Shown: positions 3,547-64,000, counted from the stretch's first letter. The stretch is DNA of 64,000 bases from Rheinheimera texasensis DSM 17496 (GCF_000711985.1 NZ_KL544005.1:1005970-1069969), one strand, 5' to 3'. Made by a program: numbers and translations. The notes: generated from the sequence alone by a model not told the origin.

Positions 3547-3689
3547 GTTCAGACTCCGCTTGCGTCAGGATACTGAAGACAGATATGGCTTAACTTATCA
3601 TGTACTGCGCGCGCTACTGCTGGTTTTTCGTAACAGGATTTGAATCTGAGGCCACAATGGCCTGCCCTGACGACGGCAGGCGTTCCATA

Positions 3690-4160: not shown

Positions 4161-4288
4161 CCTTGTGATAAAAAAGCAGTGTATTCAGCCTGCAGCGCTC
4201 TGGCGATCCATCGTTATCCAAAGGGATAAGTGGTGGAAAATCCGGGATCTGGTCAGCTCAGCAACACATAACCCACAGGAGTGCGCAC
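4161..4288. promoter_or_regulatory. Divergent promoter region with inverted repeat
   Basis: The intergenic region between the NTF2-like gene and the deacetylase gene contains TTATCC-AAAG-GGATAA at 4214-4229, a perfect six-base inverted repeat with a four-base spacer that could be an operator. A GGAG Shine-Dalgarno sequence precedes the ATG at 4289. No certain -35/-10 pair was identified. Confidence 0.35.
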
Positions 4289-5116: not shown

Positions 5117-5138
5117 CTGCAACTCAACCAATGATCGC

Positions 5139-5167
5139 GTAGGGTCGGTAAGCAAAGCGCCACCGAC
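5139..5167 (+). repeat. REP-like palindrome with GTAG head
   Basis: A 29-bp element: GTAG head, then GGTCGGT...ACCGAC stem around an AAGCAAAGCG core. The head and core match the REP elements around the RAYT gene, but the stem bases differ, so it is a variant family member. It lies 3' of the deacetylase gene. Confidence 0.55.
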
Positions 5168-5298
5168 CTTTAACACCGACCTGCGATACCAACCAACTGA
5201 CCATTGCTGCATCACCTACAGATAATTTGTTTACTTAAGTTTACTTTAAGACTGCCCCGTTAGGCTTGGTACATTGCCGTACTGCCCTTGGGTGCTTT

Positions 5299-6081
5299 GT
5301 GTCGCTGACTACTGTATTCCCCCCTGCTAAACAACTGTTGCTGCGCCCTTTGCTGGTGCTGGTTACACTGTTTGGCCTCTGTTATGGCCTTGGTTTTGAT
5401 TTTGCGCTCAGCACATTCTGGTATCAGCTGCAGGATCAAAGCTGGGCTTTACAGCATCACTGGCTGACGGAAGATGTGCTGCACCGCGGTGTGCGCAACC
5501 TGAATCAACTGCTTATCGCCGGTTTGTTACTGCATTTTGTCCTGAGACTTAGCCTGCACCAATATCGACGCGCCCGTGGCCTGACAGAGCGGGCAAGCCG
5601 GTGGACCAGCATCCACCAGCAGGCGCATGGTCGCCTGTTATTGAGCCTGACGTTGAGCCTCGCCGGTGTCGCCATCATCAAACACAGCCTGCCGATGGAT
5701 TGTCCCTGGGATTTACAGGCCTTTGGCGGCACGCAGTCCTTCACCGGTTTATTTAGCAGCTGGCCCGCCAACCGCGCGCCCAACGCCTGTTTTCCGGCCG
5801 GCCATGCAAGCATCGGTTTCGCCTGGCTTGGTTTGTACTTCTTCTGCTTACAGCTGTATCCGACGCTGGCACGGCCGGCGCTGATGCTGAGCCTGACGCT
5901 CGGTTTTGGTCTGGGCCTGGTGCAGCAACTCCGTGGCGCACATTTTATTTCCCATGACATCGCCAGTGCAGCCTGGTGCTGGAGCATGGCATGTCTGTGT
6001 GCCTATTGGCCGGCCTTACGCCAACGTCTAAGCCCCGTTTCTTTACCAACTTCATATTCTCAGGTTATCCAAAATGACTGA
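5299..6081 (+). CDS. PAP2-family membrane phosphatase
   Basis: A membrane protein of about 260 residues. The start is uncertain: GTG at 5299 is chosen, and an in-frame TTG at 5266 would add 11 residues; neither has a strong ribosome-binding site. Hydrophobic segments alternate with the three PAP2 motifs: K-x6-C-P (KHSLPMDCPWDL, a variant of KX6RP), CFPAGHAS (PSGH motif) and LRGAHFISHDIASA (SRX5HX3D-like). The family dephosphorylates lipid phosphates such as undecaprenyl pyrophosphate, phosphatidate or lipid A. It overlaps the EptA-type gene by 8 bp. PAP2 genes next to phosphoethanolamine transferase genes are a recurring pair, also seen with mcr genes. An inner-membrane enzyme acting on lipid A or on the diacylglycerol by-product is inferred. 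Confidence 0.8.
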   Translation: MSLTTVFPPAKQLLLRPLLVLVTLFGLCYGLGFDFALSTFWYQLQDQSWALQHHWLTEDVLHRGVRNLNQLLIAGLLLHFVLRLSLHQYRRARGLTERASRWTSIHQQAHGRLLLSLTLSLAGVAIIKHSLPMDCPWDLQAFGGTQSFTGLFSSWPANRAPNACFPAGHASIGFAWLGLYFFCLQLYPTLARPALMLSLTLGFGLGLVQQLRGAHFISHDIASAAWCWSMACLCAYWPALRQRLSPVSLPTSYSQVIQND

Positions 6082-7744
6082 ACTGACTCTGCACTGGCTG
6101 CAGCGTAGCCACAGCTTTTTTCTGACCCGCACCCAACGCTTTGTGATGTTGCCGGGCGTCTACGCCATGCTGCTGGCGCTATTAACGACCGCGTTATTTT
6201 GCGCGCCGTTTCTGGCGCAGGTGCAACAAAAAATTCCGGGCCAATATGGCCTGCAGGCTGTTCTGCTGCTGGTATTGTGGTTGCTGAACAGTCTGGTGTT
6301 TGTGTTGCTGAGTGTGCCCGGTTTACCACGGCTGCAACGTAGTCTGCTGTCTGGCTTTTTCCTTATCGCCGCCATCAGCCATTATTTTATCAGCCACTTT
6401 GGTACTGTGATTGACCGCTCCATGCTGCAAAACGTGCTGGAAACCGACATCGCCGAAGCCAGTGGTTTACTCAATCCGGATTTGATTTTCACCACGGCCG
6501 GCTGGTTCGCGCTGCTGGGCTGGCTCAACTTAAAAATTGAGTTTAAAAGCCAATCCTGGCGTCGCTCTGCCGCACAGTGGCTGCTGACGCTATTGTTGCT
6601 GGTAAGCGGCATTGGTGCTGTGGCCGCAACGCAATATGCTGAACTTGCCAGCTTTTTCCGTAACTACCGCGACGTGAAGTTTTTTGCCTTGCCGATCAGC
6701 CCGCTGTCGGCCAGTATTTCAGTGACTAAGCAACAAATCGCCGCACATTTTCCGCCGACTTTTCAGGTGCTTGGCACTGATGTGCGTAATCTTGCGCCCA
6801 GCGCAGCGCCGAAAACTGTGGTGCTGGTGCTGGGGGAAACCGCCCGCGCCGACCATTTTCAACTGAATGGTTACAGCCGGCCAACCAATCCGCGCTTAAG
6901 CCAGTTACCGGTCATCAGCTTTAGCCAGGTCAGCTCCTGTGGCACCGCCACCGCGCATTCAGTGCCTTGTATGTTTTCCTGGATGGGCCGCGAGCGGTAT
7001 GATGAAACCACGGCAAAAAACAGCAGCAATGTGCTGGATATCCTGCAAAGCAGCGGCGTGGAAGTCAGCTGGTATGACAATAATTCCGGCTGCAAAGGCG
7101 TTTGTGACCGGGTCAAACACGAGATGCTGTTTGAACTGCCGGAATGCCAGAGTGATGGCTGCACCGACGCCATCCTGTTGCAGGCACTCAAGCGTGAGCT
7201 GGCGCAGCCTGCGGGCAAAGACCGCATTATTGTGCTGCACCAGCTTGGTAGCCACGGCCCGGAATATTTCCGCAGAAGTACGGCACAGCAAAAGGTATTC
7301 GGCCCGGAATGTACCGATAAAGAGCTGAATCATTGCCCGCCACAACACATTATCAATGCCTATGACAACAGCCTGCTGGCAACCGACGACTTACTTGCCA
7401 GCGTGATCCAGCAGCTGCAATCTTTGCCCGACAGCGCCATGCTGTATATTTCTGATCACGGCGAATCGCTCGGTGAAAACGGTGTTTATTTGCACGGTCT
7501 GCCGTATTGGATGGCACCCAAAGCGCAAACCGGCGTGCCGTTGATTTGGTGGATGTCACAAAGTTTTGGCCAGCACTTTGATCCGGCAAACGGCAAACCA
7601 CTGAGCTATGATTGCCTGAAGCAGCAGCAAAAACAGCCACTTAGCCACGATAATTTATTTCACAGCCTGCCGGCGCTGTTTGCCCGTACCAGTAAAGAAT
7701 TCCGGCCCGAACTGAATCTGTTTGCTGCCTGCAGCAGGAGGTAA
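6074..7744 (+). CDS. eptA: Lipid A phosphoethanolamine transferase (EptA/MCR family)
   Basis: A 556-residue inner-membrane enzyme: about five N-terminal membrane helices (to about residue 190), then a periplasmic sulfatase-fold domain. Visible active-site motifs are VLGETARAD (metal-binding Glu about 255), SSCGTATAHSVPCMFS (catalytic Thr about 290) and SDHGES (metal-binding Asp-His about 460). The Cys-rich segment NNSGCKGVCDRV and ECQSDGC fits the disulfides of EptA/MCR. It moves phosphoethanolamine from phosphatidylethanolamine to lipid A phosphates, which lowers negative charge and binding of polymyxins. It overlaps the PAP2 gene, and the BamA-like gene follows after two bases, so the three form an operon. 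As a chromosomal gene it would be an intrinsic polymyxin-resistance candidate; no mobile element is attached. Confidence 0.9.
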   Translation: MTELTLHWLQRSHSFFLTRTQRFVMLPGVYAMLLALLTTALFCAPFLAQVQQKIPGQYGLQAVLLLVLWLLNSLVFVLLSVPGLPRLQRSLLSGFFLIAAISHYFISHFGTVIDRSMLQNVLETDIAEASGLLNPDLIFTTAGWFALLGWLNLKIEFKSQSWRRSAAQWLLTLLLLVSGIGAVAATQYAELASFFRNYRDVKFFALPISPLSASISVTKQQIAAHFPPTFQVLGTDVRNLAPSAAPKTVVLVLGETARADHFQLNGYSRPTNPRLSQLPVISFSQVSSCGTATAHSVPCMFSWMGRERYDETTAKNSSNVLDILQSSGVEVSWYDNNSGCKGVCDRVKHEMLFELPECQSDGCTDAILLQALKRELAQPAGKDRIIVLHQLGSHGPEYFRRSTAQQKVFGPECTDKELNHCPPQHIINAYDNSLLATDDLLASVIQQLQSLPDSAMLYISDHGESLGENGVYLHGLPYWMAPKAQTGVPLIWWMSQSFGQHFDPANGKPLSYDCLKQQQKQPLSHDNLFHSLPALFARTSKEFRPELNLFAACSRR

Positions 7745-7746
7745 GT

Positions 7747-9615
7747 ATGCATTCCCTGCGATTGTCGGTGTTGCACTGTGCGCTCTGCAGCGCTGTAGCC
7801 CCTTTACTGTTTGTCTCAGGCAGCGCTGTTGCCGGCGAAACCCCACAACAAGTGGAGCCGGTCTCCAGTGAATTGTTCTGTGACTGGCTACATAAAAAAC
7901 CAGCGCGCAGCAAAGAGACTACAGCTACAACAGACGAACGCCGCATCCGCGTCGGGCAGATCCACATTCGCACCGAGCCGATTTTTGTCGAAGACGCCGA
8001 TGCCATCTGGCTGCATCACTTTGCCAACTGGGCGCACGTCACCACCCGCCCCGACACAGTCGGGCGCGAATTACCTTTTGCCATTGGCGAGGAAATCAGC
8101 GTCAGCGATCTGGCCGAAGCCGAACGGCTGCTGCGCGACAAATCATATCTGCATGATGCCAAAGTGCGGTTAAGCCCAACCTGTAATGCCGACCAAAGTT
8201 ATGATGTGGTGGTTGAAACTTCGGACAACTGGAGCTTGTTGCCGTCTTTTGGCCTCGGTCGCAGTGGCGGCCAGAACAAATATGCCTTTGGTTTTAAAGA
8301 AGATAACTTCCTCGGTTTTGGTGTACGTACCTCAGTCAAATACCAGAGTGACGCCCAGCGCAGCGGCTATGAATTTAAACTGGAAATGCCGCTGTCACTG
8401 GTCACCGGCTCGGCTGGCAGCGACTGGTTCGCCCACAGTTATCTGACCGCCGAATGGACCAACAATGACGACGGCCATGTGCAGCAACTACAACTGGAAA
8501 AACCGTTTTATCAGGACGACAGCCGCTGGATGTACCGCACTGAATGGCTCAGCGACCTGCAGCAAACCCAGGTGTTTCATAACGGCGCGCTGGAAAACAT
8601 CTTTGAAACGGATCACCGCCGCGTTGACCTCAGCGCCGGCATGCTGTGGTCCTATCAGGACCGCGCTTCCACCCGGCTGCTGGCCGGTGTACTGAGCGAA
8701 GACTGGCGTTTTGCCCCGGCGCTGCTGCAACCAACCTTAGCGCTGCCACAAGACCGCAGCTGGGCTTATCCCTGGGTTGGTGTTGAATACAAACAGCACG
8801 ACTACCGGGTGCTGCAGGACATTCTGTTTATCGACCGCGCCGAAGACATTAATCTCGGCTGGCACCACAGCCTGAAGGCCGGTGTGCAAAGCAACAAACT
8901 GCAGGCCGACACCTCCTTGGGTTACCGTCTGATCGGGCACAGCAGCAAAGGCTTTGGCGACCGCCAGCATTTGGTGTTACTCGAAGGCGGTTTTGATTTC
9001 ATCGACGGCCTGCAAGGCGGCGATTTACGCGAATGGCGCTTTCAGGCGGAAGATTTTTATCAGCTGAACCGCGATTTTACCTGGTACAACAAAGCAGAGC
9101 TGACGCGGCGCAACCGCAATTTTGCCGACCTGCCGCTGGAACTCGGTGGCGACAGCGGTCTGCGCGGTTATCCGCTGCAGTATCAGCACGGCATCAGTAA
9201 AACGGTACTGACCAGCGAATTGCGCTGGTATCCGCGTATCAACCTGTACAAGATGCTGGATTTGGGTTTTGTCGCTTTTGCTGATCTGGGCCGCGTCAAC
9301 GGCGGCAGCGTCGCAGATCCGGCGCAGCTCAATCCGACTGCTATTGCTGCGCGTTTTGCCCTGCCTTTGGGGATTGATATGATCACGCCAATGTCGCCGC
9401 CGCCGCCCATGGATGCCATCTACCGCAGCAACAGCGACTTATTACGGCAAAACCTGACCGACCGCTGGTTAGGTAGTGTCGGTGTTGGCATGCGGATCTA
9501 TTCGTCCAAATCCAGCAACAACCACGTGGTGCACATCGACCTGTCCACACCAATGACCTCAGCCCCAGGCGTCGACAGCTGGGAGATTGAGCTGAACGTC
9601 AGTAACAGGTTTTAA
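7747..9615 (+). CDS. BamA/TamA-like outer-membrane beta-barrel with short N-terminal POTRA-like domain
   Basis: A 622-residue protein with a perfect AGGAGG Shine-Dalgarno site seven bases before the ATG and a signal peptide (ends SAVAGE). Residues of about 60-170 form a POTRA-like domain (RIRVGQIHIRTEPIF...RLLRDKSYLHDAKV). The rest is an Omp85-type 16-strand barrel with DNWSLLPSFGLGRSGGQNKYAFGFKEDNFLG, LGGDSGLRGYP (the conserved loop 6 G-x-R-G-Y motif) and a C-terminal aromatic (ELNVSNRF). Small Omp85 proteins insert or secrete proteins or lipids. Placement in an operon with PAP2 and EptA suggests a role in envelope remodelling; the client is unknown. Confidence 0.8.
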   Translation: MHSLRLSVLHCALCSAVAPLLFVSGSAVAGETPQQVEPVSSELFCDWLHKKPARSKETTATTDERRIRVGQIHIRTEPIFVEDADAIWLHHFANWAHVTTRPDTVGRELPFAIGEEISVSDLAEAERLLRDKSYLHDAKVRLSPTCNADQSYDVVVETSDNWSLLPSFGLGRSGGQNKYAFGFKEDNFLGFGVRTSVKYQSDAQRSGYEFKLEMPLSLVTGSAGSDWFAHSYLTAEWTNNDDGHVQQLQLEKPFYQDDSRWMYRTEWLSDLQQTQVFHNGALENIFETDHRRVDLSAGMLWSYQDRASTRLLAGVLSEDWRFAPALLQPTLALPQDRSWAYPWVGVEYKQHDYRVLQDILFIDRAEDINLGWHHSLKAGVQSNKLQADTSLGYRLIGHSSKGFGDRQHLVLLEGGFDFIDGLQGGDLREWRFQAEDFYQLNRDFTWYNKAELTRRNRNFADLPLELGGDSGLRGYPLQYQHGISKTVLTSELRWYPRINLYKMLDLGFVAFADLGRVNGGSVADPAQLNPTAIAARFALPLGIDMITPMSPPPPMDAIYRSNSDLLRQNLTDRWLGSVGVGMRIYSSKSSNNHVVHIDLSTPMTSAPGVDSWEIELNVSNRF

Positions 9616-9623
9616 CTGTTGGC

Positions 9624-9699
9624 GTACGGCGGCGCTTTTGCTTGCCGTACCTACAATCGAGAGTAAAACGTAGGTACGGCAAGCGCTGCGCCGCCGTAC
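9624..9699. repeat. BIME: two inverted REP palindromes downstream of the Omp85 gene
   Basis: Two REP elements face each other: minus-oriented 9624-9654 and plus-oriented 9670-9699. Each carries a GTAG head followed by GTACGGC...GCCGTAC stems around an AAGC..GCGCC core. The inverted pair can fold into a large hairpin and lies between the Omp85 gene stop and the RAYT gene end, where it may act as a transcription end or mRNA stabiliser. Confidence 0.8.
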
Positions 9700-9734
9700 G
9701 TTTACCACAACAGTACTGATGTCGTAACCAGCAA

Positions 9735-10262
9735 CTAACTGTCGCCGTCAATCTGACTATTGCTGTCCCCGCACCAATCGGCAGTGTAGATGCCTGCAGC
9801 TACATAGCGGTGAAAGGTGGAATAGGGCCAGTCCTGCACCCGATTGACCCAGCCATGTTTCAGCGGATTGCGATGGACATAATCAAAGTGATGCTGGTAA
9901 TCACTGGCATCACGGATTAAATGCTCCCAATAATGCCGTTGCCAAATCCCGCGTTCTCGCCGTAACTCCCTACTGGGAGTGCGATATTCGCCGACGGGTA
10001 TAGCACGCGAAAATGCTTTTTTAATATCCCGCCACCGACCGGCAAAGTCGCAGTCACCTGCAGGTAAGGTCCAGATACAGTGCATATGGTCCGGCAAAAC
10101 GACCCAAGCATTGATTAAAAATGGCCTTTTCTGGTGCACATGTCGAATACAGGATTTCAACAAATCGATCTGTTCAGTCAGCAGCTGCAACCGCCGTTGT
10201 TCAAGGTTTACGGTAAAAAACCAGCTGGCACCTGTATTACGGGCACGACGATAGTTTGGCAT
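9735..10262 (-). CDS. rayT: REP-associated tyrosine transposase (RAYT, Y1_Tnp domain)
   Basis: A 175-residue protein starting MPNYRRAR at the ATG at 10262; the longer open frame runs through flanking repeat DNA and is not used. It has the Y1 HUH-nuclease motifs: VVLPDHMHCIWTLP (H-x-H metal site, about residues 59-72) and YVHRNPLKHG with the nucleophilic tyrosine (about 133). RGIWQRHYWEH is typical of RAYTs. RAYTs are domesticated relatives of IS200/IS605 transposases thought to mobilise or maintain REP elements. Here REP pairs bracket it on both sides (9624-9699 and 10308-10394), the canonical arrangement. Single copy in this window. Confidence 0.92.
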   Translation of the reverse strand: MPNYRRARNTGASWFFTVNLEQRRLQLLTEQIDLLKSCIRHVHQKRPFLINAWVVLPDHMHCIWTLPAGDCDFAGRWRDIKKAFSRAIPVGEYRTPSRELRRERGIWQRHYWEHLIRDASDYQHHFDYVHRNPLKHGWVNRVQDWPYSTFHRYVAAGIYTADWCGDSNSQIDGDS

Positions 10263-51871: not shown

Positions 51872-51991
51872 GCGACAACAACCCCCGACTGCTTTTTGTA
51901 ATAACCGGCACTGCCTTTTGGCAGGGCCTGGCTGAGTACTACCCAAAACAGCCATTTGACCATGAAACATCTGATTGATAAGGAATCGAAC

Positions 51992-54298
51992 ATGTCACCC
52001 CGTTATTCATTGCTGATGCTGGCGTTAAGCCCTGTGTTACTGACCGCCAAAGTCTTTGCGGCCGATGCTGCCAGTGCCAAAACGCTGGAGGCTGTCGAAA
52101 TCAAAGCCAGCGAAATCAAAACCAGCCCGCAATTAAAACAACAGCAGGTCAGTGCCAAAGATATCGACAGCCAGCAAATCAGCAATCTCACAGATTTAGT
52201 GCGGATGGTGCCCGGCGTGAATCTGACTGACATCGGCCGCTTTGGCTCCAGCGGTTTTAATATCCGCGGTGTCGAAGGTGATCGCGTCAAAATTGCCGTG
52301 GATGGCTTAGCCCTTGGCGAAACCATGGACCCGGACAGCCATGCACCTTATGAGTTTTTCCGCTCCGGCCTTGGTGGCATCGACCCGGATGCATTAAAGC
52401 AGGTCAATATTCTCAAAGGCGCTGACGCCATCAGTGCCGGTAGTGGTGCCTTAGGCGGCGCCGTGCTGTTTTTGACCAAAGATCCGGCCGATTTCCTCAA
52501 TTCCAGTGGTGACGACGGCGCACTCAAGTTCAAAAGCCAATACAGCGGCAATAACAGTGAATGGCTGCACAGCATCACCGGCGCCGCCCGCACCGGCCGC
52601 TTAGAAAGCCTGCTCGTGTATAGCAGTCGCGATGGTGAAGAAAGCCAAAGTTATGACCGCCACAGCACCGTCACAGGCCCGGGTAGTACCAGCGCCGACC
52701 CGCTCAGCGCACAAAGCCGGAATTTATTACTGAAGCTGCAATACAGCTTGTTGCCGGAGCACAAAATCGGCTATAGCCTCGACAGCTACCAAACTGACAG
52801 CAGCTTGCAGAACCTGTCCCGGCAGGACCAAACCTACTTAAGCCGCACCGGTCTTGATGACAGCAACCGCGACAAACACAGCCTGCAATATGACTATCTG
52901 GCCGGCCTGGCTTTATTTGATACGCTGCAGCTGAAATTTGACCACCAAAACAGCCGCAACCACGGCCTGACGCGGATGACCGTCACTGCGACCTGCCCAC
53001 AGAATGTGAGCCCATGCATCCGCGAAGAAGACCGCGATTTCCGGCAGAAACTGACCCAATGGACCGCCGCTTTTGATAAAGAGCTGAACACAGAAAAACT
53101 GCTACAACAATGGACTTATGGTCTGCAGGCGCAAAACAAAACGGTCAGCTCAGTCGCGATAGACCGCCGCTTTGTCGGCCAGACCTCAACACTCGCGACC
53201 ACCGAAGTGGACCCGGCTTTTGTGCCGGTCACCGATATCAGCACCCGCTCGATCTATGCCCGTAACCTGCTGAGCCTGACCGACACGGCCTGGTCGTTCG
53301 GCCTTGGCGCGCGCTACGATTCAATCGATTACAACCCACAGTTGTCGGCGACTTACCAGGATAAAACCGGTTCAGTCAAAGCCGTCGATTTTGGCGCGGC
53401 CAGTTATCAGGCGCAGCTGCATTATCAGCTCGATGAGCGGCAACGCCTGAGCCTGCAGGCCGGCCGGGGTTTCCGCGCGCCGACCACCGAAGATATGTAT
53501 CTGCAGACCAGCACCACCAGTTTGCAGGAAGCGGTCAGCGGCAATACCGTGACGTTACCGACGGCGCAGGCCAACCCGGCATTAAAACCCGAGCACAGCC
53601 TGAATCTGGAGCTGTCGTACCAGCTGACGTTGGATAACAGCGCACATCAGCTGTCGTTATTTCGCGATAAATACAGCGACATGATCCAGAGCGGCCAGTT
53701 CACCATCAACCCCACCACCGTCTACCAAAGCTGTGTGCGCGGCGTCTGCAGCAAACAAAATGGCGCTGTGTACAGCATGCCGGTCAATATCGACTCGGCC
53801 GTGGTGAAAGGCATTGAACTGGAAGGCCATTGGCAACCAGACGCCCACTGGCGGCTGAACTGGGCAGCAACTTACCAGAGCGGTGAAGAACAAAATGGCG
53901 AGCCGCTGCTCAGCGTGATGCCATGGAGTGCCGTGCTGGGCGTCGGTTATCAGCTCAATGACGATATCCGGTTATTGCTGAATAACCGTTATCAGGCGGC
54001 AAAAAGCAGCTCAGACGCCTGGGTCTATAACAGCAGTGGCGCACAAACAGCTGCCACGCCTTATTTAAGTGACAGCGCCTTCGTCAGCGACTTGTCGTTG
54101 CAATGGCAAGTGCTGGATCAGCTGGCGCTGACCGCCGGGGTGTTTAATCTGCTGGACCAGGAATATTATCGCTGGGAGCGGCTGCAATATGTCACGCAAT
54201 CAGTGGGCGCGGTGCGCGGCGGTGTCAGTGGTGATGGCATCCGGCGTTATCTGGAAAGTGGCCGTTATGGCAAGGTCAGCCTGACGCTGAGCTTCTAA
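51992..54298 (+). CDS. TonB-dependent haem/haemoglobin-type receptor
   Basis: A 768-residue protein from the ATG at 51992 (AAGGAA upstream) with a signal peptide (ends KVFAADA). Plug domain: SNLTDLVRMVPGVNLTDIGRFGSSGFNIRGVEGDRVKIAVDGLALGE and VNILKGADAISAGSGALGGAVLF. The barrel ends with KVSLTLSF. The DGLALGETMDPDSHAPYEFFRSG segment is the style of the haemoglobin/transferrin/lactoferrin receptor family. Fur boxes ahead of the operon support an iron substrate, most likely haem. The gene ends in a strong terminator. Confidence 0.88.
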   Translation: MSPRYSLLMLALSPVLLTAKVFAADAASAKTLEAVEIKASEIKTSPQLKQQQVSAKDIDSQQISNLTDLVRMVPGVNLTDIGRFGSSGFNIRGVEGDRVKIAVDGLALGETMDPDSHAPYEFFRSGLGGIDPDALKQVNILKGADAISAGSGALGGAVLFLTKDPADFLNSSGDDGALKFKSQYSGNNSEWLHSITGAARTGRLESLLVYSSRDGEESQSYDRHSTVTGPGSTSADPLSAQSRNLLLKLQYSLLPEHKIGYSLDSYQTDSSLQNLSRQDQTYLSRTGLDDSNRDKHSLQYDYLAGLALFDTLQLKFDHQNSRNHGLTRMTVTATCPQNVSPCIREEDRDFRQKLTQWTAAFDKELNTEKLLQQWTYGLQAQNKTVSSVAIDRRFVGQTSTLATTEVDPAFVPVTDISTRSIYARNLLSLTDTAWSFGLGARYDSIDYNPQLSATYQDKTGSVKAVDFGAASYQAQLHYQLDERQRLSLQAGRGFRAPTTEDMYLQTSTTSLQEAVSGNTVTLPTAQANPALKPEHSLNLELSYQLTLDNSAHQLSLFRDKYSDMIQSGQFTINPTTVYQSCVRGVCSKQNGAVYSMPVNIDSAVVKGIELEGHWQPDAHWRLNWAATYQSGEEQNGEPLLSVMPWSAVLGVGYQLNDDIRLLLNNRYQAAKSSSDAWVYNSSGAQTAATPYLSDSAFVSDLSLQWQVLDQLALTAGVFNLLDQEYYRWERLQYVTQSVGAVRGGVSGDGIRRYLESGRYGKVSLTLSF

Positions 54299-54316
54299 AC
54301 TGCGTCTTTGCCAACA

Positions 54317-54346
54317 GGCAGAGATCCAGCGATCTCTGCCTTTTTT
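54317..54346 (+). terminator. Rho-independent terminator after the iron operon
   Basis: GGCAGAGATC (54317-54326) and GATCTCTGCC (54331-54340) form a perfect 10-bp stem with a CAGC loop, followed by TTTTTT. Confidence 0.95.
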
Positions 54347-54362
54347 GTCACAGTGCTGGCCA

Positions 54363-55283
54363 TCAACCAGACGCAACAGCAGCACTAAGCTCCCGGTACA
54401 AAGCTTTATGATGGTCGCTCAGAACCGCGACATCAACCTGCTGCAAATAACCGCGCGCTTTGGCCGGTGCCTGCAGTGCCAGATAGAGCTCGCTAAGGCG
54501 CAGCCGGTGAATGGACTGCTGCAAATCGTCTATGCCGGGGCGCATATAAGGCAATGATTTTTCATAATAATCCACCGCTAACCCCAACTGCCCGAGCAGC
54601 TGATAAGTGCGTGCCAGATTACCGTGCGCGACAATAATGTCGTGATGACGGTCACTGGGCAGGATCGCATCGAGTGCCTGCTTGCGATAATAAGCGGCAT
54701 CATCAAGCTGCTTCAAAGCATGGCGGACCAGCGCTTTATTGCTGTTCAGTTCAAACACAAACTGCGGATCGCGGCTTTTGGCAAAACGCTGCTCTGCTTG
54801 CAACAGCAACTGCCAGGCTTTGTCATTTTGCCCGGCAACGGCCTGCAAATTCGCCAGCTCCAGCACCCGCATCGGGTCAGCAAAAGCCTGATAAATCGCC
54901 TCAAGCTGCCGGCTCGCCAGCTCAGTGTAATAAGCCGCCTGGGCGTCATCACCGCGGGCTATTAAAGTTTTGGCCTGATAAAAATACAGCTGAGTGCGAA
55001 AGGCCACAGGCGCATCGGCAATTTTCAGCAGCTGATTGCTTTCATCATACAATTGGCGGAACTGATGATTCACATACAGATAATCCAGCCGGTACGACTG
55101 CAGCTTAAACCACAGCAACGTATGCAGCGGTGTCTGCGAAAGCGCCTGCTGCAACAATTCGGCACAGGGCGTGGCCGGTTGCTGCAGGCAAAACTCTTCA
55201 TGATCACTCAGGTGCTCAGCCGCTTGAACGCCTGGCAGCAAACTGCTGCACATTAGTGTGAGGGGAATTAGGTTTAATTTCAT
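54363..55283 (-). CDS. Secreted TPR-like protein, tandem paralogue 2
   Basis: A 306-residue protein with a signal peptide (ends GVQAAEHL). AEHLSDHEEFCLQQPATPC at the mature start includes a Cys pair; the rest is TPR-like (FRTQLYFYQAKTLIARGDDAQAAYY, FVFELNSNKALVRHALKQLDDAAYYRKQALD, AHGNLARTYQLLGQLGLAVDYYEKSL). About half the residues match the gene just upstream, so this is a recent tandem duplicate. Function unknown; periplasmic protein-interaction role inferred. Confidence 0.75.
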   Translation of the reverse strand: MKLNLIPLTLMCSSLLPGVQAAEHLSDHEEFCLQQPATPCAELLQQALSQTPLHTLLWFKLQSYRLDYLYVNHQFRQLYDESNQLLKIADAPVAFRTQLYFYQAKTLIARGDDAQAAYYTELASRQLEAIYQAFADPMRVLELANLQAVAGQNDKAWQLLLQAEQRFAKSRDPQFVFELNSNKALVRHALKQLDDAAYYRKQALDAILPSDRHHDIIVAHGNLARTYQLLGQLGLAVDYYEKSLPYMRPGIDDLQQSIHRLRLSELYLALQAPAKARGYLQQVDVAVLSDHHKALYRELSAAVASG

Positions 55284-55315
55284 CAGTCTGGTTGTACCTC
55301 AGCCAACGATCATCG

Positions 55316-56272
55316 TCAATCGGCGTCGCACTGCGCTATTGCCTTGCTGGCAACAAGCTGCTGGTGCAGGTATTGATAAAGTGACTGGTAAGTCGTCTCG
55401 ACCAGCTGCGGCTCGACCTGACTGAATATCTGCCTTGCGCCAGCCAGATCCTGCAACTGACAATGGACCTGACTAAGGCGCAATAAGCGCATTTGCCGGC
55501 GCACATCGTCCGCCCCCGGATTCATCCGCGCTAAGGCCTGCTGGTAATATTGCTGCGCCAACCCATATTGGCCGAGTAACTGATAAGTCCGGCCCAGATT
55601 GCCGTAAGCGACGCTGATTTTGCCGTCGTCGCCGCTGGGTAAAATGGTGTCTAATGCCAGTTTGCGCGCATAGGCAGCGTCTGCCATCTGCCCGTTTGCC
55701 TGCTGCACCAGCGCTTTGTTGGTATAAAGCTCAAACAAAAATACCGGATCTTTGCTTTTGGCAAAGCGGGCTTCTGCCTGCATCAACAGCTGCCAGGCCT
55801 GCGTTTGTTGCCCCATCACGGTTTGCAGATTGGCCAGCTCCACCAATCGCAGCGGGTCAGCAAAGGCCTGAAATAATTGCGCCAGGTCTGCAGCAGCCAA
55901 ATCAGCGTAATGCTGCGCCTGCAACAATTGGCCATTGCTGTGCAGAATTTTGGCCTGATAGAAATACAGCTGCGTGCGAAACACCGGTGGCATGTCTTCC
56001 AGTTGCAATAACTGGGTCGTTTGTTGCGCCAGTTGCTGGTCCAGATGTTTATCAAACAGGTAATCGAGCTGATAGGATTTCAGCTGATACCAGCGCACCG
56101 AAAAAGGCTTAGCGCTGTCCAACTGTTGCTGCAGCAATGCCAGGCAATCCTGCCGCGCCGCGCTTTGGCAAAAAGCTTCATGATCGTTGAGGTGCTCAGC
56201 CGCCTGAGCCACTGTCATCATCACAGACCACAACATACAGAACAGCAGCCAACACAGCTTCATACGACACAA
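55316..56272 (-). CDS. Secreted TPR-like protein, tandem paralogue 1
   Basis: A 318-residue protein with a signal peptide (ends VAQAAEHL; an ATG nine bases in is an alternative start). It shares AEHL-DHE-FC, FRTQLYFYQAKIL, QAFADP-R-ELANLQ and the AYGNLGRTYQLLGQYGLA TPR with its neighbour. The N-terminal Cys pair (FCQSAARQDC) is kept. 32 bp separate the two genes, so they are an operon. The third relative is at 12510-13436. Confidence 0.75.
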   Translation of the reverse strand: MCRMKLCWLLFCMLWSVMMTVAQAAEHLNDHEAFCQSAARQDCLALLQQQLDSAKPFSVRWYQLKSYQLDYLFDKHLDQQLAQQTTQLLQLEDMPPVFRTQLYFYQAKILHSNGQLLQAQHYADLAAADLAQLFQAFADPLRLVELANLQTVMGQQTQAWQLLMQAEARFAKSKDPVFLFELYTNKALVQQANGQMADAAYARKLALDTILPSGDDGKISVAYGNLGRTYQLLGQYGLAQQYYQQALARMNPGADDVRRQMRLLRLSQVHCQLQDLAGARQIFSQVEPQLVETTYQSLYQYLHQQLVASKAIAQCDAD

Positions 56273-57128: not shown

Positions 57129-59510
57129 CTAAAGCGCTGCCGCGCAGCGGTCGGCCCAGTCGAGTGCTGCCGCGGCTGGTGCAAACAGCAGTTCCGCCTG
57201 CGGCTTTAATAGCTGCAGCAAAGCTTCGGCCTGCTCTGCTGCTGACAACTTCGCGCTGATGATTTGACTAAACTGCTGTTGCTGTACCAGCAACCGCTGC
57301 AGTTCTGCCGATTTGGCTGCGACGCTACTCAGCTGCTGTTGTTGCTGTGAAAACGCCTGTTGCCACACCGGCCAGTCCGCCGGCAACTGACAGGGCGCTG
57401 CCTGCGCAAAACCCTGCTGCAAAGCCAGCAGCGCCGGCGACTCCAGCATTAAGCTGTCGGCAAGCTGCGTCAACGGCTCATCCAGATGATAACGGTCTGC
57501 TGCGGTTTTCAGATGGTGACGGCCGTAATAATGCAGCGGCTGCAAATACTGGCTGAAGTCCTGCAGCGCCTGGTTCTGCGCGCTTGTCAAAGCCCCAAGT
57601 TCCTGCTTCGCCCATTGTTGCAAACTGGCACTGGCCTGAACACGGTGTTTGAGACCAATCTGCGCGGCATAGTTATCCATTGTAATTAACCGTTGTGACA
57701 GGTTGGCCGTTGCATCCGCAGCAGTCGCCGCCGGTGACCAAAACCGTTCTGCCACTACAAACAACCGCGGCCAGAGTTTTAAGTCGAGCAGCTGCGGCGC
57801 GACCAGCTCAGACCAAAGCGCCGCTTCGCCACCCCATAGCAATTGCTGCTGCGCATCGGTTAATACCGCTGTGCTGGCAAGCACTGTATAAGGCTCGGGC
57901 TCTAACATCAGCGGATAACTATGATTGCCAATCAGCGCCAGCGCTTGGGCTGGTTTGCCGTCTTTCAGACTAAAACGCAGCTGCACAGGCCCGAGATAAT
58001 TATTGGCATCAACCCGCAGCTGCTGTGTGTTTGCCAAAGACTTGTTGGCCAAAGGCCAGCTGCGCACTTGGGCCGGCACCACACCCCGGCCTGTCGCCGC
58101 CAGGCTGCCTTGCCAGTCACCGTTTTTTGTCTGATACAAGCGGACCGTGCCAGTCACAGTCTTGCCGTTTAAGCGCTGCAAGCTGAAGGCAAACTGCAGT
58201 TGTTGTAGTGTTTGTGGCGGCGCTGTCACCGGCATGGTCACCGCCAGCGGGTCGTTCTGCGCGTGATAAGACGCGGGCTGCGGCATATCAAGATAAAAAC
58301 CTGCTGATAGCAGCGCCGGATGACCAGCCCGCACCGCAGCACCGAGCGCGTCCTGGCCCTGCCAGCTTTGCACCACCGTAGTTTTCGGCAATTGCGGATG
58401 CAAGGTTTCATCCCAGCCAATCATCCGGCGCTGCTGCTGGGCGAGCAGCGCTGCCAGTTTCTGATTAAACCAGGCCTGCAGCGCATGGCCGTCCACCAGT
58501 AGCTGCTGTTGCATCAGCTGCTGAATATTAGTGTTCGCCAGCCAATAATCAGCTTTCACTTCATCGCCGCCAATATGCAGATAAGGGTCCGGAAACAGCT
58601 GGCGCCACTCTGCGACCAGCGCGCTGATAAACTGCCAGCTCTCTGCTTTGCTGACATCCAGCACCGGCGCAAACACGCCAAAACGCCGCTCCGGTGGTAG
58701 CGGCTGTATACCCTTTTTGTCCAGCATCGCATCCGGCCAGGCTAATAGTTCCGGATAAGCCATGCCAATCGCCGAGGCATGACCCGGCACGTCCAGCTCT
58801 GGCACCACCCGGATGCCCCGCGCTGCGGCATAGCTCACCAGCTCGCGTACTTGCTGCTGGCTATAAAACTGGCCCTGACTCGCTAACTGGTGCAGCTTCG
58901 GATAAGCCTGAGATTCAATACGCCAACCCTGATCATCGGTCAAATGCCAATGCAGCACATTGAGTTTGGCCGCCGCCATGCCGTCCAGCGTGCGGCGGAT
59001 ATCAGAGAGAGGAATAAAACGCCGCGCACTGTCGAGCAACAATCCACGCCAGCGAAACCGCGGTTTATCGCTGATTGTCAGCAGCGGCAGCTGGCAGGTA
59101 TTGCTGTCACAACTGACCAGCTGGCTCAGAGTCATCAGGCCATACAATACGCCGGTGCTGCTGTGCGCATCGAGGCGGACTCGGTCCGCGTCAATTTGCA
59201 GCTGATAACTTTCGTCATCGTCCGGGCCGGGCAGCGGAATGGCTGCCCGATAGCGGATCTGCAGCTGTGCGCCCGCAGCAGGCGAGGCTTTAAAAGTGAG
59301 CTGCGGCTGGAATTGTGCCAGTAGTTGCAGTGCTTGCCCGACCGCAGCACTGTCCGGCCCGTCCACCGCAACGCCGATGGTTTTTGCCAGCAACATTTCA
59401 CCGCTACCAGCCTGTATCTTTGCCGGTTTTGGCATTAAAACGGGTTCGGCCTTTGTCGTTGCGGCAAAGAGCTGTGTAACCACACAGATAAACATCAGCA
59501 GCTGTCGCAT
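57129..59510 (-). CDS. Secreted GH20 beta-N-acetylhexosaminidase
   Basis: A 793-residue protein with a signal peptide (ends ATTKAEP). GH20b N-domain (about 25-150), then the catalytic TIM barrel: RWRGLLLDSARRFIPLSDIRRTLDGMAAAKLNVLHWHLTDDQGWRIE, VVPELDVPGHASA, YLHIGGDEVKADYW (catalytic Asp-Glu about 313-314) and IGWDETLHP. It removes terminal GlcNAc (or GalNAc) by substrate-assisted catalysis. The C-terminal 300 residues include a beta domain, then a helical region. It is last in the right-edge operon behind the sugar kinase, so chitin-oligosaccharide or chitobionic acid cleavage is a plausible role. Confidence 0.92.
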   Translation of the reverse strand: MRQLLMFICVVTQLFAATTKAEPVLMPKPAKIQAGSGEMLLAKTIGVAVDGPDSAAVGQALQLLAQFQPQLTFKASPAAGAQLQIRYRAAIPLPGPDDDESYQLQIDADRVRLDAHSSTGVLYGLMTLSQLVSCDSNTCQLPLLTISDKPRFRWRGLLLDSARRFIPLSDIRRTLDGMAAAKLNVLHWHLTDDQGWRIESQAYPKLHQLASQGQFYSQQQVRELVSYAAARGIRVVPELDVPGHASAIGMAYPELLAWPDAMLDKKGIQPLPPERRFGVFAPVLDVSKAESWQFISALVAEWRQLFPDPYLHIGGDEVKADYWLANTNIQQLMQQQLLVDGHALQAWFNQKLAALLAQQQRRMIGWDETLHPQLPKTTVVQSWQGQDALGAAVRAGHPALLSAGFYLDMPQPASYHAQNDPLAVTMPVTAPPQTLQQLQFAFSLQRLNGKTVTGTVRLYQTKNGDWQGSLAATGRGVVPAQVRSWPLANKSLANTQQLRVDANNYLGPVQLRFSLKDGKPAQALALIGNHSYPLMLEPEPYTVLASTAVLTDAQQQLLWGGEAALWSELVAPQLLDLKLWPRLFVVAERFWSPAATAADATANLSQRLITMDNYAAQIGLKHRVQASASLQQWAKQELGALTSAQNQALQDFSQYLQPLHYYGRHHLKTAADRYHLDEPLTQLADSLMLESPALLALQQGFAQAAPCQLPADWPVWQQAFSQQQQQLSSVAAKSAELQRLLVQQQQFSQIISAKLSAAEQAEALLQLLKPQAELLFAPAAAALDWADRCAAAL

Positions 59511-59512
59511 GC

Positions 59513-60511
59513 TCAGGCTCCTTGCAAGCTGATTTGCGGCATCAATTCCCGCGGGATAATAGCGCCATGCTGCTGCACCACCGCCGCCGCCAGCTGATGG
59601 CCTGCCTGCGCAGCCGCCACCAAATCTGCCGCGACCAAATCCGCTGCGACCAAATCTGCCGCCACTAAAGCATCAGGCGCAGTCAAAAAACGGGCTAGAA
59701 ATCCGGCAGCAAAGGCATCGCCGGCACCGCTGCTGTCGACCAGCTGACGTACCTGCTGCGCTTCGACTTGTAGCCGCAATGCTGCCGTGCCAACCCAACA
59801 AGGCGCTGCACCGCATTTAAGCAGCACGGTGCGGGCGCCGGCGTGCAGCGCTGCGTCGACTAAAGCCGCCGGTGCTGCATCCGGAAGTTGCCAAATCAGC
59901 CGCTCGTCGCTGTCGGTCAACAGCGCCAGCTGACAGAGCGGCAACAGCTTTTGCTGCCAGCGCGCGGCAGCTTCGGCTTGCCACAACAAAGGCCGGAAAT
60001 TATTGTCATAAATCAGCCGACCACCGCGGCCAACAAAATCTGCCGCCGCCTGATACAGCCGCTGCCGGTCTGGCTCGGTCAGGATCGCAAAGCTGATACC
60101 GCTCAGATACAAAGCATCCAGGCTGCCGTCAGCCAGCGCCTGCTCCAGCGGCGTCTGCTGCAATGATGTCTGTTCAGGTGAAAAGTACTGCCGCACTGCG
60201 CTGTCATCGCGCTGATACCGAAAACTGCGCTCGCCGCTGGCGTCGATATCAATCCAGTATTGGCCAAGCGTTTTCAGCGGATGCCGGGGGGCCCGCAGCA
60301 CTAGACCCTCTGTGTCCAACGTTGCTGCCAGCTGTTCGCTGGCAACGTCCTGCCCCAGCAACGTGAAATACTGCACTTCGATGTTAAGCCCGTGCTGAGT
60401 GCTGAGCCGATGCAGATACAAAGCGGTATTGAGCGTATCGCCGCCAAAACCATAACCCCGGCCATCCGCCCGATGCTCACGCATCACTTCACCAAAAAAA
60501 CCGATGCGCAT
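59513..60511 (-). CDS. PfkB-family sugar kinase, 2-keto-3-deoxygluconate kinase-like
   Basis: A 332-residue ribokinase-fold enzyme. GFGGDTLNTALYLHRL (substrate-site glycines, about 22-37), QYWIDIDASGERSFRYQRDDSA, LIYDNNFRPLLW (the D-x-N-x-R-P-x-L-W form typical of KDG kinases) and VDSSGAGDAFAAGF (catalytic Asp about 258). It probably phosphorylates 2-keto-3-deoxygluconate to KDPG. A run of three to four AADLV repeats (about 275-298), coded by a 15-bp tandem repeat, lies after the active site and is not part of the family. The start overlaps the symporter stop. Confidence 0.85.
   Translation of the reverse strand: MRIGFFGEVMREHRADGRGYGFGGDTLNTALYLHRLSTQHGLNIEVQYFTLLGQDVASEQLAATLDTEGLVLRAPRHPLKTLGQYWIDIDASGERSFRYQRDDSAVRQYFSPEQTSLQQTPLEQALADGSLDALYLSGISFAILTEPDRQRLYQAAADFVGRGGRLIYDNNFRPLLWQAEAAARWQQKLLPLCQLALLTDSDERLIWQLPDAAPAALVDAALHAGARTVLLKCGAAPCWVGTAALRLQVEAQQVRQLVDSSGAGDAFAAGFLARFLTAPDALVAADLVAADLVAADLVAAAQAGHQLAAAVVQQHGAIIPRELMPQISLQGA
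59622..59667. repeat. 15-bp in-frame tandem repeat inside the kinase gene
   Basis: About three copies of a 15-bp unit (ACCAAATC(T/C)GC(C/T)GCG) encode repeated LVAAD. Slippage would add or remove five residues without a frameshift. Confidence 0.8.
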
Positions 60512-62049
60512 CAGCCGGCCTCCGCCTCAGTGGCAGTTGAATAACCGCCGGTTTTCTCTGGGCCAGTCGCGGGCTGATCGGTGACCCGCCCTGCCGCCAG
60601 CAGCGCCAGGGCTTCAGCGCGGCTCATCGCCACTGGCGCGCTGAGCAGGCTGCCGATTATCGCCGCAACCAAACTCAACACCGTCGCCGGGATCACCGGA
60701 TTGCCCCAAAAAGCCAAAGCACCCGGCCACCACAACACCAATAACGACACCAGCGGCGCGGTTAATAATGCCGCCAGCGCGCCGGCTTTATTCAGCCGGG
60801 TCCAGCGCAGGCCGAGTAGCGCCACGGCAAACAAACCGGACAACACCATGCCGACCATCGTCGTGATATAGCCGATGATATTGTCAGCCAATAAGGCAAA
60901 ACCCAGAGCCAGCGCGACCACAGCGACCAACCCGAGCCGCGATAGCAACACTACTTTTTCCGGCGCAGGCAAACGGCCAAACAGCGCTTTGTACAAGTCG
61001 CCAACCAACACCGACACACCGGCGATGGCATCGGAACTCGCACTCGACAAGGTCGCAGAAATACCGGCCAGTAGCACTAACACACCCAGCGCCAGCGGCA
61101 AGGTATTCAGCGCCAGAAATGGAAAGGCATAAGAGGGGTTTTGCAGCGACGGTGCCAGCTGCAGGGCGGCGAGGCCCAACACGGCCGGGATCATCGAGAA
61201 AAACAGATACAACAGGCCAGAGCAGACAAAAGATTTGCGGATAGCACTGACATCTTTGCCGGAATAAATCCGCTGGCGAAAACTCGGCGTCGCCAGCACA
61301 CCAACCGCCACCGCGACCGCCAGCGACAAACCGGGCAGCCAGGCGGTACCAGCAGTTTGCGCCGCCGCCAACGTATTGGCCTGCGTCTGAATAGCGTCAA
61401 CACCGCCCACCGCCGCCAGCGCAAAACCCGCCATCAGAATAAAACCGACAAATAAAATGATCGCCTGCACCGCGTCCGTCCAGACCACTGCGGTGTAACC
61501 GCCAATCACCACATAAATGGCAAAACCAGCGGCTATCAATAACTTACTCTCAGTTAAACTCAGGCCAGTGAGCCAGGCCAGATACATACTGCCGCCAAGC
61601 ATATGTGCGCCAAGCCAGCCGATACAGGCGATAAAAATCAACACACCGACCACATGGCGCACCTGCTTGTCGGCACCGGTGTAATAACTCAGCTCCTCCG
61701 CCATGGTGAGGAAATTGAGCTTGCGCAGCGGCGCAAACCACCAGGCCAGCAGCAAAATACCAATGCCACCGCCAAGGCCATACAACACACCGCCCCAGCC
61801 ATGTTGATAGGCATAACCGACTGCGCCCATCGACGAACCGGTGCCAACCATAGTCGCGACTGTAGTGCCCAGCATCAGCCAGAATGGCAAAGCGCGGCCA
61901 CCGAGTAAAAAGTCTTCGCCGCTTTGCTCGCCAGCGCCTTTAGCCCGGTGCGACACCCACCAGCCCAGCATTACCATCGCCAGTAAATACAGCGCAAAAC
62001 CGGTCAGAAACAGCCATTGCTGCTCTGTTTGTTGTATGGATTGTTGCAT
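60511..62049 (-). CDS. Sodium:solute symporter
   Basis: A 512-residue SSS-family transporter with about 13-14 helices. GEDFLLGGRALPFWLMLGTTVATMVGTGSSMGAVGYAYQHG (N-terminal signature), VVIGGYTAVVWTDAVQAIILFVGF (TM6 region), and ISATLSSASSDAIAGVSVLVGDLYK (helix with the Na+-site serines). It differs from the galactose symporter at 33 kb. With the deacylase, RidA and kinase in one operon it probably imports the acylated amino or sugar-acid substrate. Confidence 0.88.
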   Translation of the reverse strand: MQQSIQQTEQQWLFLTGFALYLLAMVMLGWWVSHRAKGAGEQSGEDFLLGGRALPFWLMLGTTVATMVGTGSSMGAVGYAYQHGWGGVLYGLGGGIGILLLAWWFAPLRKLNFLTMAEELSYYTGADKQVRHVVGVLIFIACIGWLGAHMLGGSMYLAWLTGLSLTESKLLIAAGFAIYVVIGGYTAVVWTDAVQAIILFVGFILMAGFALAAVGGVDAIQTQANTLAAAQTAGTAWLPGLSLAVAVAVGVLATPSFRQRIYSGKDVSAIRKSFVCSGLLYLFFSMIPAVLGLAALQLAPSLQNPSYAFPFLALNTLPLALGVLVLLAGISATLSSASSDAIAGVSVLVGDLYKALFGRLPAPEKVVLLSRLGLVAVVALALGFALLADNIIGYITTMVGMVLSGLFAVALLGLRWTRLNKAGALAALLTAPLVSLLVLWWPGALAFWGNPVIPATVLSLVAAIIGSLLSAPVAMSRAEALALLAAGRVTDQPATGPEKTGGYSTATEAEAG

Positions 62050-62151
62050 GAAATGTTTATTCCCCGTTGCGCTGTCGCGCCGATGTTCCGCTACGCAGAC
62101 TGGCAGCTCTGTGGCCGCCTTGCTCTGTCGCAGCGTTGTTTTGTCGCGCGC

Positions 62152-62535
62152 TTAGCTGCCTTTGTAGCAGGTGACGTCGACTTCCACTTTGCAGTCCACC
62201 ACCAAATCAGCGACAGCACAGATCCGCGCCGGCGGATGGGTACCAAAGACTTCGCGGAACACTTTATTAAACGAGCCAAAATAACGCGGGTCAGTCAGTA
62301 CCACAGTGACGTGCACCACATGCTCAAGGCCATAACCGGCTTCCTGCATGATGTCGAGGCAGTTCTGAATGGCGAGGCGCGACTGCTCAACAATGCCGCC
62401 TTCGACCACTTCGCCATCTTTCATCGGCGTCTGGCCGGATACATACAACCAGCCACCGGCTTCCACCGCGCGGGAAAAAGGTAAAAACTGGCCACCGGTG
62501 CCGGTGCCGCCTTCGGCGCCAAATCTGCGGATCAT
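62152..62535 (-). CDS. RidA-family enamine/imine deaminase
   Basis: A 127-residue protein. FSRAVEAGGWLYVSGQTPM, QNCLDIMQEAGYGLEHVVHVTVVLTDPRYF and FGTHPPARICAVADLV (with the conserved Arg of the active site) and a C-terminal VEVDVTCYKGS are the RidA pattern. RidA hydrolyses reactive enamines or imines released by PLP-dependent dehydratases, so its presence implies such a dehydratase in the pathway. The start overlaps the deacylase stop (ATGA). Confidence 0.92.
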   Translation of the reverse strand: MIRRFGAEGGTGTGGQFLPFSRAVEAGGWLYVSGQTPMKDGEVVEGGIVEQSRLAIQNCLDIMQEAGYGLEHVVHVTVVLTDPRYFGSFNKVFREVFGTHPPARICAVADLVVDCKVEVDVTCYKGS

Positions 62536-64000
62536 GCTTGTGCTTCCTTATCTGGATTGGAGTTGGGATGTTTAATAACGGAATTTCGCGCCGGTTGGCG
62601 GGCTAAAAAACGACCGGCGCGCTGACCTGTCGCCGCGCCCTGCTGATAACTGAGCACACCATTGACCCAGACCGCAGAAATGCCGGCCGCAGCAGCAACA
62701 GGGTGAGTGAAAGTCGCGTTATCGCGGATTGTCGAAGGGTCAAATAACACCAGATCGGCCTGATAACCTTCGCGCAGCAGCCCGCGCCCGGTCAGATTAA
62801 AATTCTCCGCCGACAACCCGGTCATTTTGTGAATGGCTTCGGCCAGTTCAAACAGCTTTAAGTCACGGCAATAATGACCAAGCACCCGTGGAAAGGCGCC
62901 CCACAAACGTGGATGCGGCAGCGGGTCACAAGGCAGGCCGTCGGAACCAATCATGCTGTACGGCGCCTGTAGAAACTGCTGCACGTCAGCTTCATGCATG
63001 CCGTGATACACAGCACCTGCCGGCATCAGTCGTGTGGCGGCCTCCAGCAAACTGCATTGCCAGTCGGCGGCGATGTCCGCCAGCAAACGTCCAGCACTGG
63101 CCGGCTCCGGTTCTGACCAGGTGATCATAATGGCAAAGTCGGCGGTGACCTGCGCCAAATCCAGCGTGCTGGAACTGGCCGAATAGGGATAACAGTCACA
63201 GCTGAATTGCTGCTGTTTGCGCCTGGCGGCAAAAAAATCGAGGATCTCCGCCGAGCGGCCCCAGTTCAGCACGCCGGCACATTTTAAATGCGACACAACC
63301 ACCGGCACATTGAGCTTCAGACCCAAATCCGCCGCTTCGGTCAGGGCATCAAGAATGCCATCGAATTCAGTGCGTAAATGCGTGGTGTAAATAGCGCCGG
63401 CGGCACAAAGCGGCGCGGCCAGCGCCAATAATTCTTCGACCGGTGCGGCAGCGGCATTGTGATAAGCCAGGCCCGAACTTAAGCCCAAAGCGCCTTGCAA
63501 GAGAGCCTGTTCCAGCGTCTGGCGCATCTGGTCGATTTCGCCGGGCGTCGCGGCACGATCAAGCCGGTCCAAAATGCTGGCTCTGAGCGCCGTGTGCCCC
63601 ACCAGTGCCGCCACATTGACTGCGGGCTGTATTGCATCCACCGCAGCAGCATAATCGGCAAAGTGCGGATAACAAAAATCCGTGCTTTGCCCCAGCAGAT
63701 TCATCGGGTCCGGCACTTCAGCGCGCAGCGAAACCGGCGCAGCACTGATGCCACAGTTGCCGGTAATGACCGTCGTCACGCCCTGGCTGAGCTTCGCCAG
63801 CATCTGCGGGTTACGCAGTACTTCCAAATCGTCGTGGGTATGTACATCAATAAAACCCGGCGCCAGTACCAGCCCTGTGGCATCCACGACAGTCGCTGAC
63901 TGGAGATCTACCCCGGCCAAATCGCCAATGGCGACAATGGTGCCAGCCTGCGCAGCCAAATCGGCGTACCAGCCGGGGCGGCCACTGCCATCCAATAACA
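62532..64000 (-). CDS. N-acyl-D-amino-acid deacylase family enzyme (5' end outside the window)
   Basis: At least 489 residues; the frame stays open to the right edge, and family members begin about ten residues before the visible DGSGRPGWYADLA. Amidohydrolase features: APGFIDVHTHDDLE (metal-binding H-x-H), TVITGNCGIS (bridging Cys), TTHLRTEFDG and VSHLKCAG (metal His) and IGSDGLPCDPLPHPR (catalytic Asp). The family (D-aminoacylase, N-acyl-D-glutamate deacylase) removes acyl groups from N-acyl-D-amino acids, and at least one branch acts on N-acetyl-D-glucosaminate. With a KDG-kinase-like gene and GH20 in the operon, the second substrate is favoured. Confidence 0.88.
   Translation of the reverse strand, partial: LLDGSGRPGWYADLAAQAGTIVAIGDLAGVDLQSATVVDATGLVLAPGFIDVHTHDDLEVLRNPQMLAKLSQGVTTVITGNCGISAAPVSLRAEVPDPMNLLGQSTDFCYPHFADYAAAVDAIQPAVNVAALVGHTALRASILDRLDRAATPGEIDQMRQTLEQALLQGALGLSSGLAYHNAAAAPVEELLALAAPLCAAGAIYTTHLRTEFDGILDALTEAADLGLKLNVPVVVSHLKCAGVLNWGRSAEILDFFAARRKQQQFSCDCYPYSASSSTLDLAQVTADFAIMITWSEPEPASAGRLLADIAADWQCSLLEAATRLMPAGAVYHGMHEADVQQFLQAPYSMIGSDGLPCDPLPHPRLWGAFPRVLGHYCRDLKLFELAEAIHKMTGLSAENFNLTGRGLLREGYQADLVLFDPSTIRDNATFTHPVAAAAGISAVWVNGVLSYQQGAATGQRAGRFLARQPARNSVIKHPNSNPDKEAQA

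Follow-up and report, generated by a model that had tools for sequence, protein, structure and literature searches.

The last genes of the 64,000-nucleotide stretch of Rheinheimera texasensis DSM 17496 DNA analysed here (the window, G000:C4:1005970-1069969, from a genome of 4.59 Mb in 12 contigs that is scored 100% complete) raise the question of what a linked deacylase, RidA protein, Na+ symporter, PfkB kinase and GH20 enzyme are for. The first-pass annotation saw in them an oxidative chitin pathway of a kind described in marine Pseudoalteromonas, with the catabolism of N-acyl-D-amino acids as the alternative. We conclude that the region is very probably an ong cluster for the catabolism of GlcNAc1A (2-acetamido-2-deoxy-D-gluconate), the C1-oxidized end of LPMO-made chitin fragments; the ong gene set, the gene order, the residues of OngB and its place in a tree all argue for the oxidative chitin reading. 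The pathway itself is already known, having been published in 2022, and the Rheinheimera cluster is a further copy of it, largely as expected.

Gene content and organization of the locus

Gene content, order, orthology and active-site residues could be read directly from the genome. All five genes lie close together on the minus strand where they had been placed, and their Pfam families agree with the original assignments. Since the edge of the window cuts ongB, the sequence past 64000 was taken from the window's own genome, in which the ongB start lies 61 bases past the edge. Window positions are given below, followed in brackets by those in locus L003 (L003 position + 56530 = window position); for the two genes outside the window they are the positions that these would have.

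57129..59510 (599-2980), minus: ongA, GH20 beta-N-acetylhexosaminidase, 793 aa; Pfam GH20, 303 bits, E 4e-90
59513..60511 (2983-3981), minus: kdgK, PfkB-family 2-keto-3-deoxygluconate kinase; Pfam PfkB, 137 bits, E 1e-39
60511..62049 (3981-5519), minus: ongIT, sodium/solute symporter, proposed GlcNAc1A importer; Pfam SSF, 144 bits, E 9e-42
62152..62535 (5622-6005), minus: ongD, RidA-family enamine/imine deaminase, 127 aa; Pfam Ribonuc_L-PSP, 86 bits, E 2e-24
62532..64000, 5' end at C4:1070030 (6002-7531), minus: ongB, predicted GlcNAc1A deacetylase, subtype V amidohydrolase; Pfam Amidohydro_3, E 6e-39
64061-64912, outside the window (7531-8382), minus: ongR, RpiR regulator; Pfam HTH_6 + SIS
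64953-66377, outside the window (8423-9847), minus: ongC, fold-type III PLP dehydratase; Pfam D-ser_dehydrat + Ala_racemase_N

The genes run ongC-ongR-ongB-ongD and then, after a gap of 102 bases, ongIT-kdgK-ongA, the intergenic distances from ongC to ongA being 40, -1, -4, 102, -1 and 2 bases. Upstream of ongB, ongR overlaps it by 1 base, and ongC is 40 bases further; the gene past ongC is a divergent DUF2569 gene, and we therefore place the end of the cluster there. Bowmanella (L039) repeats the identical seven-gene order and Colwellia (L017, L066) most of it, which argues that it is not due to chance. A DSD1-like PLP dehydratase had been predicted to lie just past 64000, where a regulator was also sought, and both are present, as ongC with its D-ser_dehydrat domain and as the RpiR-type ongR. 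The aldolase, which had also been suggested to lie past 64000, is not part of the operon: two KDPG aldolases are encoded at other sites of the genome (C5:158950 and C4:963008), and one of these shares a glucuronate-type cluster with UxaC, a second PfkB kinase and an enzyme of the mannitol dehydrogenase family.

No TonB receptor gene ongOT-1 was found beside the cluster, the neighbour of ongC being the DUF2569 protein, and the genome's best matches to an ong-linked TonB receptor lie elsewhere and are only 28–42% identical. A published survey reported ongOT-1 as a non-conserved member of the ong cluster. We weighed a TonB receptor at 51956-54298 as a candidate OngOT-1 and set it aside on length, since its 780 aa fall short of the 982–1132 aa of the ong-linked open frames. 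In the window at 51956-56272, this 780-aa TonB-dependent receptor adjoins two TPR-containing proteins, similar to each other and encoded in tandem, whose starts are signal-peptide-like.

The proposed pathway and its enzymes

The ong cluster of Pseudoalteromonas prydzensis consists of eight genes in the transcripts ongOT-1, ongCRBD and ongIT-kdgK-ongA (Jiang et al. 2022, PMC9537276), and the pathway outlined in the first-pass annotation corresponds to the one published for it, in which GlcNAc1A is handled by the GH20 enzyme OngA, the symporter OngIT, the deacetylase OngB, the PLP deaminase OngC and KdgK. Loss of any ong gene but ongOT-1 or ongR abolished growth on GlcNAc1A or GlcNAc-GlcNAc1A, and OngB, OngC and KdgK were assayed in series, up to KDG-6-P (PMC9537276). 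We infer the substrates, reactions, transport and regulation in Rheinheimera from these characterised orthologues. Exported OngA would free GlcNAc1A from oxidized chitooligosaccharides in the periplasm, and OngIT would bring it into the cell by Na+ symport. OngB, a zinc amidohydrolase, would then remove acetate to give D-glucosaminate, from which the PLP enzyme OngC would eliminate water; the resulting enamine/imine would be hydrolysed with the help of OngD (RidA) to 2-keto-3-deoxygluconate and ammonia. KdgK would form KDPG, to be split by an aldolase encoded outside the cluster, and OngR would repress the system until GlcNAc1A appears. In this scheme we are least sure of what exactly RidA does, of the outer-membrane receptor and of where the oxidized chitin comes from, the last because the genome lacks an AA10 LPMO.

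OngC is a fold-type III PLP enzyme with D-ser_dehydrat and Ala_racemase_N domains. Its listed start (TTG, 474 aa) probably lies too far upstream, as homologues align only from about residue 73. The nearest solved relative of OngC is 3gwq (343 bits), deposited as a D-serine deaminase. As a side observation, 3gwq shares 95% identity with OngC from ong-core loci of Paraburkholderia (L069, L048, L038), and for that reason its label may need revision, possibly to glucosaminate dehydratase.

Arg104 of OngD, which we take to be the key arginine of RidA proteins, is the same in each of the 78 homologues that span this position. RidA-type proteins need an arginine for imine hydrolysis (PMC4433059). In P. 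prydzensis, OngC by itself made KDG in vitro, yet ongD was essential in vivo (PMC9537276). For this reason, although the PLP deaminase and the RidA protein that had been proposed to assist it are both in the cluster, the assistance itself is best called putative.

The best NCBIfam match of KdgK is the KDG kinase family NF052444, at 229 bits and so under its 400-bit cut-off. A 15-base tandem repeat of 3.3 copies in kdgK (59613-59662) gives a repeated DLVAA in the protein, and may possibly vary between strains. The ongIT slot is the same in Bowmanella, Colwellia and the sister species, at 55–87% identity.

OngA has a signal-peptide-like N-terminus and the catalytic pair Asp316-Glu317, invariant across 10 ong-linked GH20s. 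Inside its GH20 barrel is an insert of about eight strands (residues ~419–553, window 57850-58256) that is absent from 6yhh; an AlphaFold model places the strands at 437–537 with a pLDDT of about 60, and searches with the insert gave no Pfam match and no convincing PDB match. All full-length ong-linked GH20s that were aligned have it. We considered the insert as an ong-specific domain or marker, but sister species that lack OngB have it in their GH20s as well, and it belongs to a broader GH20 subfamily, so that GH20 alone is not diagnostic of ong.

Source of the oxidized chitin

The genome encodes two GH18 chitinases and one GH19, which mark the organism as a chitin eater. A PF03067 profile search found no AA10 LPMO in it, and with a sister species' LPMO as query only chitin-binding modules were matched, and no catalytic domain. 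The chitinases lie together at one locus:

7699-15732 of L103 (G000:C4:1232001-1252000): ChiA-type GH18, GH19, ChiC-type GH18 and argA

Only 350 bases separate the ChiC-type GH18 from argA here, with no LPMO gene or remnant between them. In G019, G013 and G004 an LPMO gene stands beside the ChiC-type and ChiA-type GH18 genes, next to argA; the slot that holds the LPMO in sister species is thus empty in the window's genome. An assembly gap is unlikely to be the cause, since the chitinase locus lies inside a 1.45 Mb contig; an unrecognised oxidase is possible. We also asked whether the LPMO could have been lost through recombination of its chitin-binding module with that of ChiC, and rejected this, the ChiC tail being ChiC-like and not LPMO-like.

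An LPMO is present in 21 of 60 relatives and OngB in six, each of which also has the LPMO; calculated by hand, this overlap has a probability of ~0.001 under independent draws, a figure that relatedness weakens. As all the other OngB-positive relatives have an LPMO, the window's genome, with ong but without LPMO, is the exception in its neighbourhood. The core and the symporter, again with no LPMO found, occur in one more gammaproteobacterium, Aestuariibacter sp. A3R04 (L083). The most direct reading is that the LPMO was lost while uptake and catabolism were retained for scavenging. Lacking an AA10 LPMO, the organism probably produces no oxidized chitin ends itself, which suggests that it lives on those made by others. 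A chitinase-bearing genome with full ong and no LPMO separates the making of oxidized chitin from the eating of it; with this one strain and its sister species, cross-feeding on LPMO products can be tested directly.

Occurrence of the ong core in other bacteria

Is GlcNAc1A necessarily a product of LPMO? We examined 80 named loci with an OngB homologue; these are the best 80 of at least 591 matches, so that the proportions are no census. Within these best 80, OngC is present in 74, OngD in 73 and OngR in 71, a GntP permease in 31, KdgK in 19, KdgA in 15, GH20 in seven and an SSS symporter in five. The RidA-bearing loci (73 of these best 80) span several phyla and varied transporters, with the key arginine invariant, and offer a clear system in which to ask why OngD cannot be dispensed with in vivo when OngC makes KDG unaided in vitro. 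A core accompanied by the GntP gluconate permease, and sometimes by KdgK and KdgA, is what one would expect for an aldonate that is converted to KDPG. Pfam bore out the GntP assignment for loci from Cellvibrio, Herbaspirillum, Pseudomonas and Acidobacteria. Across loci L009-L087 (Burkholderiales, Pseudomonas, Cellvibrio, Acidobacteria) we observed the OngC/R/B/D core with GntP and sometimes KdgK/KdgA, mostly without GH20 or LPMO. No AA10 LPMO was found in 36 of the 50 OngB-locus genomes searched. In a published survey, the strains with both ong and LPMO were gammaproteobacterial, except one Achromobacter.

It is unlikely, though conceivable given the missing LPMO and the many Burkholderiales and Acidobacteria whose core has neither LPMO nor linked GH20, that the Rheinheimera substrate is free GlcNAc1A or a related 2-acetamido aldonate of another origin, for example GlcNAc oxidized by sugar dehydrogenases. 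The operon has kept its GH20, the genome has chitinases, and the LPMO accompanies OngB in every other OngB-positive relative. A supply of GlcNAc1A of its own through the membrane PQQ glucose dehydrogenase was rejected, as none scored above the cut-off in the genome. As a tentative proposal, to which we give somewhat less than an even chance, this bacterium would have lost its LPMO and kept the ong operon, and would be a consumer of its neighbours' oxidized ends; more broadly, GlcNAc1A would be a shared environmental metabolite, which a gluconate-type permease and the core (deacetylase, PLP dehydratase, RidA, regulator) would let many LPMO-less Burkholderiales and Acidobacteria use.

Specificity of the deacetylase

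Over 474 aligned residues OngB shares 55% identity with PpOngB, and it matched PpOngB (9kb1) with 552 bits, the D-aminoacylase 1rjp with 450 bits and 3gip with 379 bits. The residues listed from the crystal structure of PpOngB with GlcNAc1A (PMC12017989) were mapped onto OngB. The 20 positions, which comprise metal, catalytic, substrate and pocket residues, are identical throughout: His68, His70, Cys97, Leu116, Ala193, Tyr194, His222, Glu226, His252, Lys254, Ala256, Tyr285, Ser290, Ser291, Ser292, Gln298, Gly348, Asp368, Leu370 and Arg379. The zinc ligands C97/H222/H252 and the base D368 are thereby kept, as are Ser292 and Gln298, which separate N-acetylglucosaminate deacetylases from D-aminoacylases; at these two positions OngB does not have the D-aminoacylase signature (Thr at PpOngB 292, Leu or Arg at 298). 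The specificity Ser is present in 84 of 86 OngB homologues and the Gln in all 86 (Gln304 = PpOngB Gln298). According to the text of PMC12017989, the alpha metal site of PpOngB includes Cys79; position 79 of the 9kb1 sequence is Pro, however, and Cys79 is probably a misprint for Cys97.

In a FastTree phylogeny with AfDam as outgroup, the OngB of the window and of four sister species stand next to those of PpOngB, Colwellia, Bowmanella and Aestuariibacter (support 0.98), far from AfDam. An OngB identity of 64% between sister species hinted at horizontal gain within the genus, a possibility rejected because the tree holds the genus together (support 0.98).

That the locus serves N-acyl-D-amino acid catabolism, through a D-aminoacylase and a D-serine/D-threonine dehydratase with the GH20 and kinase incidental, is very improbable. 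In its favour, the deacylase does have the D-aminoacylase fold and much common sequence (1rjp), OngC as characterised deaminates D-serine and D-threonine as well (PMC9537276), and 3gwq is labelled a D-serine deaminase. Against it stand the residues that set specificity, the tree and the gene neighbourhood. PpOngB, which has the same pocket, showed no activity toward N-acetyl-D-amino acids (PMC12017989), and such a route would have no use for the linked KDG kinase and GH20, nor for the gluconate permease and the KDPG aldolase of the relatives.

Comparison with known systems

The D-aminoacylases AfDam (1m7j/1rjp) and BbDam (3gip) resemble OngB in fold and metal site by homology. They part in the pocket, where AfDam has F, M, G, T and M for the A, A, S, S and G of OngB, and in the sequence alignment AfDam is unlike OngB at 193, 256, 290, 292, 298 and 348. 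At the equivalent of 298, AfDam has Leu in the paper (PMC12017989) and Arg in our alignment, a local shift that leaves the conclusion unaffected. With PpOngB (PMC12017989, PDB 9kb1) all catalytic and specificity residues are common at 55% identity.

The GntP-type loci of Cupriavidus, Herbaspirillum, Pseudomonas and Acidobacteria differ from that of Rheinheimera in having a gluconate-type permease for the SSS symporter, no linked GH20 and mostly no LPMO, but share with it OngB and, mostly, OngC, OngR and OngD. Closest is the ong cluster of P. prydzensis ACAM 620 (PMC9537276). Unlike it, the Rheinheimera cluster has no adjoining ongOT-1 TonB receptor and its genome has no AA10 LPMO; however, the same seven genes stand in the same order, corresponding to operons 2 and 3, with an identical OngB active site, a RidA protein of 127 aa in both, an RpiR regulator and an OngB that is orthologous in the tree.
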